Shown here: piece after piece, positions 956 to 4,905 of the stretch | Layout of the letters: each line of letters starts with the position of its first letter | Position numbering within the stretch: the first letter of the stretch is position 1 | Source: Lutispora sp. | GTDB lineage: Bacteria; Bacillota; Clostridia; Lutisporales; Lutisporaceae | DNA length: 13,821 bases | Direction of reading: 5' to 3' | Assembly (NCBI GenBank): GCA_030834765.1 | Contig: JAUQXG010000023.1 | Location: 1-13,821, forward strand | The notes under the pieces: model-generated | Seen by the model: the letters and a program-made list of their open reading frames with translations, nothing else | Database searches by the model: none | Told to the model about the DNA's origin: nothing | Position numbers and translations under genes: made by a program

Positions 956-2458
956 ATGAAAGACAATAAAAATGTAGAAGCACCCGACTCAAATCTCCAA
1001 CGCCCAACCTCCAAAAAAACCTGGAACCTGGCGCCTGGAACCTGGAACCCTAACTCCTCACCCCTCGAGCCTCGAACCTCGTATCCAAAACTCCTAACTC
1101 TAATAATCTTGGGATTGATACTAACCTTAACTTTGTCATTCGTTATCGCGGATTCCCCCGCCCTCTCCACTATTGAATCCATGATGGATATCATAAAAAG
1201 CGATTACTATAAGGATGTAGATGATGAGGTATTGATAAGAGGCGCCATAGACGGTATGTTTAAAGTCCTGGATCCTCATAGCGGCTACTATAACAATAAA
1301 GAATTCCAAGAGCTGCAAGCCTCCTTGAGCGGAGAGTTCAGCGGAGTGGGAATGCAGGTAGAACGTAAAAACGATCGTGTAACAGTAGTTTCACCAATAG
1401 AAGGGACACCAGCCTTTAAAGCTGGAATCGCAACAGGAGATATCATCCTATCCGTAGATGGAAAGGATATAAAGGATTTACCCCTAGATCAAGCAGTAGC
1501 TCTCATAAGAGGAGAAGCAGGAACCAAAGTAAAACTAGAAGTGGTAAAAGCAGACAAAGGGGATGTCGTATATATAGAGCTGATAAGGCAGATGATAAAA
1601 CTAGACTCCGTAAAAACCACATCTATATACAATCAAACGATAGACAAATATACCGCAGATAAAAGAATAGGCTATATTAGAATAACAGAGTTTGATCAAG
1701 GTACAGCAGATGATTTTAAAGCATTGCTAGAAAAATATAAAAAAGAAGGTAAAAAAGGCCTGATCATAGACTTAAGATATAACCCAGGTGGACTTTTAAG
1801 CACAGTAGTTGATATGTGCAAAGAAATAATCCCAGAAGGGCCAATCGTCCATATAGACACAAAAGGCGATAAAAATGATGAAGTGTACTCTTCTACATTA
1901 AAAACACCACCTTTTAAAATAGTAGTTATAACAAATGAAGGTTCTGCATCTGCTTCAGAGATACTCACTGGAGCAGTAAAAGACAGCGGAGTAGGTAAAA
2001 TAGTGGGAACAAAAACCTATGGCAAAGGCACCGTACAGACCATGGGCTACCTAACAAATGGTGATGGTGTGAAGATGACAATAGCAGAATACCTGACAAG
2101 AAATAAAATCCACATAGACGGCAAGGGCATAATGCCAGATGTAGAAGTAAAACCTCAAGCACCAGAAGAATTGGCTAATGTGAAAGCTGACAGAGATCTA
2201 ACAAAAGGCATAGTGGGCTTAGACGTATACGGCATACAACAAAGACTGCAAGATCTAGGCTACAAAATAACAACAGACGGTATTCTAGACACTTCAACAA
2301 TAGAAGCATCCGGCAAATTACTAAATAAGACAATGACAAAAATAATAAAAGAAGATCAAAAAGCAATCGTAAAAAAATATGAAGAAACGAAGATAACAAA
2401 CATAGTAGACATAGAACTAAAAACAGCAGTAGACGAAATGATAAAACTGCTGAAGTAA
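956..2458 (+). CDS. Membrane-anchored carboxy-terminal processing protease (S41/CtpA family)
   Basis: Serine endopeptidase of the tail-specific protease family, acting outside the membrane on exported or wall proteins. The ATG at 956 follows AGGAG (941-945) at good spacing. Visible layout of the 500 residues: a hydrophilic tail 1-42, one membrane segment about 43-66 (LLTLIILGLILTLTLSFVIA), a PDZ domain about 110-200, and an S41 core about 215-395. By comparison with CtpB and Prc, which have a 25-residue Ser-Lys spacing, the catalytic serine is S332 in GSASASEI, the lysine is K357 in YGKGTVQ and Q361 completes the site. Residues 423-438 (DVYGIQQRLQDLGYKI) begin a peptidoglycan-binding-like segment, common in clostridial CtpA proteins. 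Oddity: the N-terminal tail is partly encoded by a heptanucleotide repeat array (1020-1083) unlike the AT-rich rest of the gene. Function is confident; the substrate and ctpA/ctpB assignment are not. Confidence 0.93.
   Translation: MKDNKNVEAPDSNLQRPTSKKTWNLAPGTWNPNSSPLEPRTSYPKLLTLIILGLILTLTLSFVIADSPALSTIESMMDIIKSDYYKDVDDEVLIRGAIDGMFKVLDPHSGYYNNKEFQELQASLSGEFSGVGMQVERKNDRVTVVSPIEGTPAFKAGIATGDIILSVDGKDIKDLPLDQAVALIRGEAGTKVKLEVVKADKGDVVYIELIRQMIKLDSVKTTSIYNQTIDKYTADKRIGYIRITEFDQGTADDFKALLEKYKKEGKKGLIIDLRYNPGGLLSTVVDMCKEIIPEGPIVHIDTKGDKNDEVYSSTLKTPPFKIVVITNEGSASASEILTGAVKDSGVGKIVGTKTYGKGTVQTMGYLTNGDGVKMTIAEYLTRNKIHIDGKGIMPDVEVKPQAPEELANVKADRDLTKGIVGLDVYGIQQRLQDLGYKITTDGILDTSTIEASGKLLNKTMTKIIKEDQKAIVKKYEETKITNIVDIELKTAVDEMIKLLK
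1012..1083 (+). repeat. Heptanucleotide repeat array copy A, inside the S41 protease gene
   Basis: After a run of seven A come four 7-nt units at 1020-1047 (CCTGGAA, CCTGGCG, CCTGGAA, CCTGGAA). A 15-nt break follows, then three units of a sister type at 1063-1083 (CCTCGAG, CCTCGAA, CCTCGTA). The stretch from about 985 to 1100 is strikingly C-rich on the + strand in an AT-rich genome. Positions 1012-1029 match copy C (4863-4880) base for base over 18 nt. It stays in the protease frame and encodes a Trp/Pro-rich segment (TWNLAPGTWNPN). The repeat structure is read directly; its mobile nature is inferred. Confidence 0.8.
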
Positions 2459-2461
2459 TAT

Positions 2462-2556
2462 GGGGGCACCAGGCACCGGGCTCCAGGTTCCAGAATTAAG
2501 GTTAGGCTTCGAAGCTTAGCTTGACACTGGTACCTGGCACTTGGCGCCTGGTGCCC
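2462..2556. repeat. GC-rich imperfect palindrome, copy B of the heptanucleotide family
   Basis: The whole 95-nt element folds back on itself. The outer arms are perfect: 2464-2474 (GGGCACCAGGC) with 2546-2556 (GCCTGGTGCCC). Further paired blocks are 2476-2480/2540-2544 (partly G-U), 2483-2488/2532-2537, 2490-2493/2527-2530, and a central palindrome around GCTTCGAAGC (2506-2515). Both arms are built from degenerate 7-nt CTGGNNC units, in opposite orientations. It lies four bases after the S41 protease stop and 50 bases before the pyrG -10. No T-run follows, so it is not a typical intrinsic terminator. It could still stabilise the 3' end of the upstream transcript. It resembles a REP/MITE-like unit in form. 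Confidence 0.8.
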
Positions 2557-2604
2557 AACTCCATTTAATACAAGAAAAAACTTCTACATAAAAACCACTT
2601 TCTA

Positions 2605-2613
2605 TGCTATAAT
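2605..2613 (+). promoter_or_regulatory. Probable pyrG promoter (extended -10)
   Basis: TGC followed by a perfect TATAAT (2608-2613) forms an extended -10 box. The -35 region around 2585-2590 is weak, which an extended -10 often tolerates. Transcription would start near 2619-2621, giving a leader of about 28 nt. That leaves no room for the GGGC-initiated reiterative attenuator known from Bacillus pyrG, so regulation here probably differs. A second TATAAT at 2621-2626 is too close to the ribosome binding site (AAGGAGG, 2634-2640) to be favoured. Confidence 0.6.
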
Positions 2614-2647
2614 AACCGAATATAATTTTATTCAAGGAGGTCTTCAT

Positions 2648-4255: not shown

Positions 4256-4290
4256 AATAACTGCTAAAGAGTATGAAAGTTTAACAAAAT

Positions 4291-4332
4291 AAAAAGTTCT
4301 GCATAGTATAAAGAGCGATGCAGAACTTTTTT
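4291..4332 (+). terminator. Intrinsic terminator after pyrG
   Basis: A perfect 14-bp stem pairs 4291-4304 (AAAAAGTTCTGCAT) with 4318-4331 (ATGCAGAACTTTTT) around a 13-nt loop, and a T-run ends the stem. It starts 35 bases after the pyrG stop. The A-tract on the left arm makes it potentially bidirectional, although nothing on the - strand needs it. Confidence 0.9.
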
Positions 4333-4440
4333 ATTTATCCACAATTTATTAACAAGGTGAAAGAAATCCAACGTCGAAATAATAATTCTACCTCAACTTT
4401 TAGGACATAAACCAAAATAAACAAGCATAGGAATAATGAA

Positions 4441-4815
4441 ATGAGTAAAACAAACTTTAAGGAACTATTACTATGGAAATTATCAAAAGAACTAGCCGTT
4501 GAAATATATAAACTAACAACCGAAGGTATGTTTGCAAAAGATTACTCATTAAAAGATCAGATAAGACGAGCTGCAGTGAGCGTACCTAGCAACATTGCTG
4601 AAGGCAATGATAGAGGGTCAGACAAAGAAATGATAAGATTTCTCTATATAAGCAAAGGATCACTAGCAGAACTGATTACACAGTTATATATAGCATGTGA
4701 AGTAGATTATATAACAGAAGCTCAATTAAAAAAGATAGAAGCAAAATGCAATGATATAGGAGCTATGATAGGAAAATTTATAAAGGTTTTAAGTGAACGC
4801 AGTAATATCAAATAA
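4441..4815 (+). CDS. Orphan four-helix-bundle protein (23S rRNA intervening-sequence protein / Avd-like family)
   Basis: The 124 residues carry the family signature throughout: FKELLLWKLSKELAVEIYKL near the start, LKDQIRRAAVSVPSNIAEG in the centre (about 37-55), then EMIRFLYISKGSLAELITQL and a final amphipathic helix. Relatives are encoded in intervening sequences of 23S rRNA genes in some bacteria. The same fold serves as the Avd accessory protein of diversity-generating retroelements, where it binds nucleic acid and reverse transcriptase. Neither an rRNA gene nor a reverse transcriptase is in this window, so the molecular role is unknown; nucleic-acid binding is inferred from the family. 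The start has only a weak AGGA (4429-4432), and I see no convincing promoter. The gene is isolated between the pyrG terminator and, 48 bases after its stop, a CCTGGNN repeat array. It could be cargo or a helper of that repeat family. Confidence 0.9.
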   Translation: MSKTNFKELLLWKLSKELAVEIYKLTTEGMFAKDYSLKDQIRRAAVSVPSNIAEGNDRGSDKEMIRFLYISKGSLAELITQLYIACEVDYITEAQLKKIEAKCNDIGAMIGKFIKVLSERSNIK

Positions 4816-4862
4816 ATCTAGTGCAGTGAAGTAAAGCTATCAAAGCTCCAGAGAAATACATA

Positions 4863-4905
4863 CAAAAAAACCTGGAACCTAGAACCTGGAGCCTGGCACC
4901 CCTGC
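4863..4905 (+). repeat. Heptanucleotide repeat array copy C, downstream of the four-helix-bundle gene
   Basis: A run of seven A (4864-4870) is followed by 7-nt units CCTGGAA (4871-4877), CCTAGAA (4878-4884), CCTGGAG (4885-4891), CCTGGCA (4892-4898) and a decayed CCCCTGC (4899-4905). The first 18 bases, 4863-4880, are identical to 1012-1029 in copy A. A short inverted pair GGCAC (4895-4899) / GTGCC (4915-4919) could make a small hairpin. There is no T-run, so it is not an evident terminator for the upstream gene. Confidence 0.8.

Follow-up and report, generated by a model that had tools for sequence, protein, structure and literature searches.

In the 13,821-nt stretch of Lutispora sp. DNA considered here (contig JAUQXG010000023.1, positions 1 to 13,821; hereafter the window), three arrays of 7-nt units stand close to one another, and the question raised by this locus is what such arrays are and whether they belong to something that moves. 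Our answer is that they are likely the ends of a family of small mobile elements, the full form of which carries a gene for a 23S rRNA-intervening-sequence protein (IVP, also named four helix bundle protein) and the short form of which is a gene-less hairpin. The window holds three pieces and one protein gene of a real, widespread mobile-element class; what is new is the generality of that class, which is related in kind to the already known 23S intervening sequences.

All three arrays that a preceding sequence-only reading had placed here are present: array A (1012..1083, plus strand) with heptads at 1020-1081, palindrome B (2462..2556, no strand assigned), and array C (4863..4905, plus strand) with heptads at 4871-4900. 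If up to two mismatches are allowed, CCTGGNNCCTGGNNCCTGG is matched 8 times in the window (overlaps counted) where 0.01 would be expected, and 0 of 200 shuffles reach 8; the 18-nt identity reported between A and C (1012-1029 vs 4863-4880: C, seven A, CCTGGAACCT) is exact, seven-A lead included. The proposed unit CCTGGNN occurs in all three arrays, and CCTCG has to be added to it as a second unit type; array A runs from the seven-A lead through four CCTGGNN units and a spacer to three CCTCGNN units. Arrays A and C are each the right half of an element, with C lying directly 3' of an IVP gene (4441..4815, plus strand) that sits between protein genes and not in 23S rRNA. Palindrome B, located between an S41 protease gene and pyrG, is by sequence and fold an IVP-less hairpin, with a left array of CCAGG type (2469-2494), a right array (2526-2551), and a centre bearing GCTTCGAAGC.

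These are members of a larger set. The window's own draft genome (G000; 3.16 Mb, 564 contigs, 87% complete) contains 37 exact matches to the two-unit pattern CCTGGNNCCTGG on both strands vs 0 for a reversed control pattern, and exact and one-mismatch matches combined define 19 sites, so that the family put forward as three dispersed copies is indeed dispersed far above chance, with many more members than three. Eighteen of the 19 sites were read (the remaining one being at contig 292, base 25), and 13 of these 18 have two inverted arms of about four heptads with a spacer between them, i.e., they are imperfect hairpins in which NNCCAGG-type units are followed by the spacer and then by CCTGGNN- or CCTCGNN-type units. 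The usual unit is thus a hairpin formed by two arrays in inverted orientation, which may or may not enclose an IVP gene; the heptads described as tandem arrays are real, but they are its arms. Of these pairs, 11 came from a both-strand scan, B from the window scan, and one on contig 458, with a short second arm, from its fold. Folded with 60 bp of flank, all 13 form hairpins in which 146-271 nt are spanned by the outermost base pairs, and several sites have further complementary flanks (GGGT.. and ..ACCC). Right halves are represented by A, C, and one site on contig 59, and two more sites are cut by a contig end. The window's IVP gene is the only copy found in this draft, and the dialect of the adjoining array C is that of the dispersed palindromes.

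In the relatives searched, the CCTGGNN family is nearly absent. These were 40 genomes, 21 from the family and 19 from the class but none from the genus. With one mismatch allowed, 37 of them lack the three-unit pattern, and the other three have one place each; that in G016 reads as a real four-unit array, and the place in G009 is matched equally by the reversed control. The wider search that the sequence-only reading had called for thus returned further copies at home and a dialect largely private to this genome.

Is the company of heptads and IVP particular to Lutispora? IVP loci were gathered from named genomes (23 loci), from 199 phylum genomes (35 with a match), and from 16 genomes reached through loci. 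The resulting 125 matches fell to 105 after removal of identical copies, with 3 loci lacking an open reading frame (ORF), and 14 of the 105 were dropped because the ORF or the flanks were too short, leaving 91 instances with at least 100 residues and flanks on both sides; several share a genome or genus, such that the counts below are not independent events. Period-7 arrays occur in 73 of 182 flanking 200-bp windows of these genes vs 7 of 173 far windows (Fisher p 1.1e-17), being divided between upstream (36) and downstream (37) sides and present at 51 of the 91 genes, in several phyla. Period 8 appears in 21/182 flanking vs 1/173 far windows and period 9 in 13/182 vs 1/173; counted per gene, periods 4, 5, 6, 10, and 12 are found at 0-2 of the 91, period 11 at 4, and period 13 at 3, while period 14 (41/91) follows from period 7. 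Repeats around the ORF exceed the 95th percentile of swapped-partner controls in inverted orientation at 69/91 genes and in direct orientation at 23/91. On cyanobacterial plasmids, for which 12 of the 19 records with an IVP match were read for flanks, period 7 is present at 10/12 loci and period 8 only at the other 2. Several Opitutae loci (L054-L060) carry clear period-8 arrays, GGCCAACY-like, in place of period 7. Where an array is present it is short, with 3 to 5 units in 74/92 cases (our detector being blind below approximately 3.3 units); this range would suit a pentamer, a match that is suggestive only.

The heptad itself is not conserved between lineages. A unit could be obtained from 64 of 109 IVP instances, yielding 56 distinct heptads. 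They agree at 6 or more of 7 positions in 56% of the 27 pairs with at least 60% protein identity; below that identity, agreement is 1-5%, near the 3% of random pairs. Dialects differ even among genomes of the window's family: G000 uses CCTGGNN and has no match to CTCGTAA, while G002 uses CTCGTAA (40 matches at 23 places, one mismatch allowed) and has no match to CCTGG. In G006 the dialect is CCCGTAA, with 26 matches, of which 13 lie on the IVP contig and the rest at 8 places. Within a genome, moreover, the array beside the IVP gene and the dispersed copies share one dialect, as seen in G000, G006, and G130. In G130 (L090, L227-L240) the short form is dispersed as an IVP-less TAGCTNN hairpin of approximately 118 bp at no fewer than 41 further places, four of which are matched by the arm of its single IVP gene. 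In its spacer, this hairpin has ACCCTAAAG-like boxes similar to the outer scaffold seen in the window's family. Across 14 G130 hairpins, two-sided change is seen at 2 of 27 pairs and 363 of 378 cells are standard, which is too few changes for an argument from compensatory change. Looking for empty sites at L090 led to no genome other than its own.

Heptads are over-represented in many bacteria, and replication slippage has been proposed as the source (PMC4692102 and PMC4679880, as far as the portions consulted go). Could dispersal then be nothing but repeated independent birth, through local slippage favouring a period of 7? Some arrays, e.g., that of L093, are very long, as slippage would allow, and by eye no shared order of unit variants is apparent in G000. 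Against this, arrays are mostly inverted pairs around a spacer with a common scaffold outside the heptads, dialects differ among genomes of one family, and insertion alleles exist (see below). The scaffold is common to G002 and the window's genome: TTCGAA lies near the centre in 11/17 G002 sites read, and GGTATTCC or GGAATACC boxes in 5/17. Several G002 palindromes also agree in how their unit variants follow one another, which is what copying of entire elements from a master would produce, and not local slippage. The G002 sites (L321-L337, L301, L319), found with a pattern needing one arm of CTCGNAA type, set CTCGNAA against CGCGNAA in opposite arms in 16/18 two-armed palindromes, with 9 in one orientation and 7 in the other; by inspection, this leaves about one mismatch per stem heptad. 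Slippage alone is therefore disfavoured by the pairing, the inversion, the common scaffold, and the G002 unit order, G000 adding no unit-order support, and we consider it highly improbable. The sequence-only reading had entertained a common mobile ancestor or ongoing slippage and copying; copying of whole elements fits G002, whereas G000 shows no shared order from which to argue it.

The comparison of loci with and without the array that the sequence-only reading had called for is supplied by cyanobacterial plasmids. One Nostoc plasmid site, flanked by a TraM-domain gene and a hypothetical gene, is matched by 29 records, of which 8 were read: the IVP element is present in C052 and N. edaphicum, while the site is empty in C057 (plasmids p057_A and p057_K) and UHCC 0926. 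The three empty records, two of which come from one strain, share a similar spacer, such that emptiness is the likely older state. On ATCC 53789 pNsp_c, the same place is occupied by an IVP-less remnant with heptads (L368), which by eye shares its left junction and heptads with the IVP element of L358; the gene-less form thus keeps its parent's end. A further insert, with TTCAAAA heptads and no IVP, is found at this site in C057 p057_H, where the heptads are arranged in inverted pairs, and in ATCC 53789 pNsp_b (L371 748-1089, L375). C052 has 486 bp where p057_A has 42 bp, and identity across the two flanks is 94.0% (647 bp) and 95.8% (743 bp). Another pair of alleles lies between ribonucleotide reductase genes, where N. 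edaphicum has 494 bp and Calothrix NIES-4105 has 13 bp, with approximately 85% identity and one Calothrix record, so the direction of change is not fixed. Neither mapped plasmid site has a target duplication, the 42 and 13 bp of the other allele being replaced. Mobility, as suggested for the arrays from sequence alone, is hence borne out for the wider class through empty, filled, and remnant alleles at one plasmid site, while the copies of the Lutispora genome furnish no such allele; the target duplications that the same reading had proposed to look for were not found. A cas6/cas4 site (L365) has the element in Anabaena 90, and the 99%-identical Dolichospermum locus carries a different palindromic insert with GTTGGGTT-type ends, for which reason the site was not used for boundaries; the gap is perhaps an insertion hot spot.

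Elements of this kind also reside within RNA genes. An Rfam scan of 40 IVP loci (all 29 new loci from the phylum survey and 11 further ones) placed 7 inside 23S rRNA (those of L113 and L120 being fragments and that of L104 containing a stop), 2 inside RNase P RNA, and 2 close to transfer-messenger RNA. The two RNase P RNA loci belong to one genus, are probably one event, and have the insert at the tip of one helix. In both (L103:1229-2003 and L105:1229-2003) an IVP element of approximately 400 nt lies in the terminal loop of that helix, which we take to be P12. In 9/9 of the 23S rRNA and RNase P RNA loci the IVP ORF is sense to the host RNA, as judged from the ORF strand (L096, L101, L103, L105, L108, L116) or the search strand (L104, L113, L120); movement at the RNA level, or a requirement that the gene be expressed, may account for this orientation. 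Identical multi-kb IVP duplicates (L101/L114, L116-L118, L108/L127, L120/L121) had been candidates for recent transposition, and were rejected once Rfam showed one per set to be a 23S rRNA gene.

The protein encoded at 4441..4815 matches the PF05635 profile at 127.2 bits (curated cut-off, 33.8) and also TIGR02436, four helix bundle protein. By sequence, a single solved structure is matched, 2gsc (XCC0516), whose structure paper, cited in PMC10053308, has five four-helix bundles in its title; the consulted portion of PMC10053308 also describes PF05635 as resembling Avd. Searches of phage records and viral contigs returned no close relatives of the window IVP. The 1.1-Mb Peribacter genome G249 (L187-L203) has 21 IVP matches, very many for its size, and a Nostoc plasmid (L364:377-1055) has two short adjacent ORFs, each annotated as four helix bundle protein.

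From these parts the following model can be drawn. The full form, approximately 400-500 bp long, comprises about four 7-nt units, the four-helix-bundle IVP gene, and an inverted array of the same dialect; the short form lacks the gene and is a hairpin of approximately 90-270 bp with two inverted arrays as its arms. Both insert between genes and, in other genomes, in structured RNA genes (23S rRNA, RNase P RNA), where pairing of the complementary ends would allow the host RNA to fold with the insert in place. IVP, as a homologue of a pentameric bundle and a distant one of Avd, may bind the heptad hairpin, perhaps with one heptad per subunit, and a host or trans-acting enzyme would copy the hairpin elsewhere, with no target duplication and small target loss. 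One candidate for this enzyme is a reverse transcriptase acting in trans, proposed because of the kinship with Avd and the sense orientation; another candidate route is template switching at the hairpin. What is observed is the dispersal, the hairpin anatomy, the linkage to IVP genes in several phyla, and the plasmid alleles; a driving role of IVP in movement would be a step beyond these.

Several observations weigh against this account. No insertion allele was found for the window's own palindromes among the 40 relatives searched, which include none of its genus, and the lack by eye of a shared unit order in G000, in which G000 differs from G002, is a further point on this side; so is the arm arrangement, since the opposite arm types of G002 are not kept in G000 (5 opposite, 6 alike, and 2 undecided, n = 13). 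The window IVP has an array on its 3' side only, with an inverted score of 8 where the threshold is 11.5, and in L049, L051, and L052, the loci of its near relatives, the score likewise falls under the inverted-repeat threshold. Of the IVP genes, 25/91 have neither period 7 nor period 8. In random 20-kb stretches, IVP-bearing genomes are only modestly richer in period 7, with 28 arrays per 800 kb in ten such genomes vs 6 per 368 kb in eight IVP-free ones (Fisher p 0.001 when set against other periods), and neither group has many inverted pairs (1 vs 0). Profile searches of the window protein found no match to a transposase or nuclease family. Finally, G002 yields no IVP match, although 23 sites were found there and 18 of the 19 that were read are two-armed palindromes.

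The last two points also support IVP as a passenger, whose gene rides between arrays while another enzyme, or replication template switching, moves the hairpins; the two mapped insertions, with small target loss and no target duplication, are likewise what template switching could give, and IVP matches no known catalytic family. Against a passenger role, the heptads are linked to one protein family across several phyla, and far more weakly to its Avd relatives, where a period-7 array occurs anywhere in the locus at 1 of 7 true Avd loci (one of the seven starting at a contig end). The silence of G002 is itself softened by an apparent IVP gene start, seen by eye, upstream of its pyrG, such that the protein may have been lost. 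We regard a passenger role as somewhat unlikely.

A named candidate for the other enzyme would be a Y1 (HUH) transposase of RAYT type, moving the palindromes as in REPIN systems, in which hairpins of two inverted repeats near a partner gene present a similar picture (PMC3116915, in the part consulted). Y1 proteins are present in 11/12 genomes examined, with three in G000, but they do not keep company with the arrays: a period-7 array lies near 0/6 Y1 genes of G000, G002, and G006 (approximately 1.5 kb per side, less at contig ends) and in only 2 of 14 Y1 loci read, among 41 matches listed. G130 (85% complete) has no Y1 match at all despite its 41 or more dispersed hairpins. This makes a RAYT-like mover quite improbable.

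How does the window look if its arrays are mobile-element ends? Array A lies within the 5' part of the S41 (CtpB-like) protease gene (956..2458, plus strand) and is translated in frame, within a 43-residue extension preceding the hydrophobic leader; the S41 proteins of L053 and L051 do not have this extension. Heptad-array sequence in the interval 956-1180 thus codes for part of an N-terminal extension upstream of the leader. Downstream, pyrG (CTP synthase; 2648..4255, plus strand) serves as a syntenic anchor, and in several relatives an IVP gene is found just upstream or downstream of it. The gene lies between the S41 gene and pyrG in L051, L052, and L053, the L053 copy being broken by a stop, and downstream of pyrG in the window, G015 (L049), and G021. 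By eye, an apparent IVP gene start is also seen upstream of pyrG in G002 and G015 (L076, L079); G021 has heptads there without IVP, and L073, L074, L081, and L082 have by eye neither an IVP start nor heptads upstream of pyrG. In the window's family, IVP would thus mostly have been kept near one place, pyrG, while palindromes have spread elsewhere. Palindrome B occupies the position at which some relatives have the IVP element, and it may be either a remnant of such an element or a later arrival.

A different explanation is that the hairpins are chromosomal regulatory or RNA-processing elements held in place by selection and immobile. The S41 protease gene and pyrG have heptad arrays near them in some relatives too, though differing in sequence, so that some sites are old or hot; array A is translated into protein; and the Geobacter heptad family was called regulatory RNA (PMC2700814, in the portion seen). 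Arrays at orthologous positions across relatives, which the sequence-only reading had held to speak for fixed local features, are in this sense partly there, though in other dialects: the window's own is missing from 37 of 40 relatives. Presence/absence alleles and locations within rRNA and RNase P genes also speak against an immobile element, and we judge this explanation unlikely. Hairpins may nonetheless acquire a secondary role after insertion.

Returning to mobile elements with heptad-array ends, one may extend the reading to a general one: that IVP genes and heptad hairpins form a distinct mobile class without a recognised transposase in many bacterial phyla; that the IVP of each lineage works, as a heptad-counting oligomer, with the 7-nt dialect of that lineage; that 23S rRNA and RNase P inserts are members that landed in RNA genes; and that much of the bacterial heptad excess is their debris. 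On this wider claim we find the balance even. If true, it would join three puzzles, i.e., heptad over-representation, the origin of 23S intervening sequences, and the role of the orphan S23/IVP four-helix-bundle family, and it would mean movement of DNA (or an RNA copy) via a small oligomeric protein that is not a known transposase. Mobile hairpins may thereby help explain both heptad repeats and split ribosomal RNA genes in many unrelated bacteria, and candidate protein/heptad pairs from many lineages are now available.

Among the matches listed in the open-access full-text literature, with most subscription papers lying outside this scope, no link of IVP to dispersed heptads was found. Tandem heptads dispersed between and within genes, as here, are described in Geobacter (H4), Xanthomonas, Nostoc, and Beggiatoaceae (TAACTGA); compared by description, these have been presented as regulatory RNA, G-quadruplex, or regulatory repeats, with no IVP link in the consulted parts of the accounts (PMC2700814, PMC4692102, PMC4679880). 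With REPIN/RAYT systems the present family shares short inverted doublets that form hairpins, are dispersed, and have a protein gene nearby (PMC3116915, same portion), whereas its ends are several heptads and a REP (repetitive extragenic palindromic) unit is described as one short palindrome (PMC3733652, also seen in part). It further differs in that IVP has no Y1 domain match and in its positions inside RNA genes. Miniature inverted-repeat transposable elements (MITEs) are short, lack a gene of their own, and carry the inverted ends of an element that has one; their insertion produces a target duplication. The gene-less forms here similarly share ends with a gene-bearing parent (L368 with L358, and the G130 IVP arm with four dispersed places), but the two mapped sites are free of target duplication and no transposase is recognised. 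Avd of the diversity-generating retroelements is a distant homologue of IVP (profile matches; PMC10053308). Heptads, in contrast to what is seen for IVP, lie near just one of the seven true Avd loci already mentioned. Avd works with a reverse transcriptase.

The closest kin is the 23S rRNA intervening sequence, whose protein family is that of the window's IVP, so that the impression of an element without a named counterpart did not hold. In Coxiella burnetii, this sequence measures 428 nt, encodes an IVP/S23 ORF between terminal inverted repeats, is excised from the precursor RNA by RNase III, and has three tandem heptamers upstream of the S23 ORF, the number of which varies between strains; as far as the consulted portion of that account goes, the heptads are treated as a feature of that single element, and an older idea is cited that intervening sequences were mobile elements with an ORF aiding mobility (PMC4990558). 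IVP ORFs are also reported from 16S and 23S rRNA inserts of Candidate Phyla Radiation (CPR) bacteria (PMC11270868, likewise in part). The elements described here share with these an IVP ORF, heptads, and, at 7/40 scanned loci, residence in 23S rRNA. Inverted repeats surround the ORF at 69/91 genes of the class, whereas the window's own copy has its array on the 3' side only. The present elements differ in that most loci lie outside rRNA, that gene-less hairpins of the same dialect are dispersed, and that the heptads are lineage-specific. Ultimately, a widespread mobile element with heptad-array ends appears to include the 23S intervening sequences as a special case.

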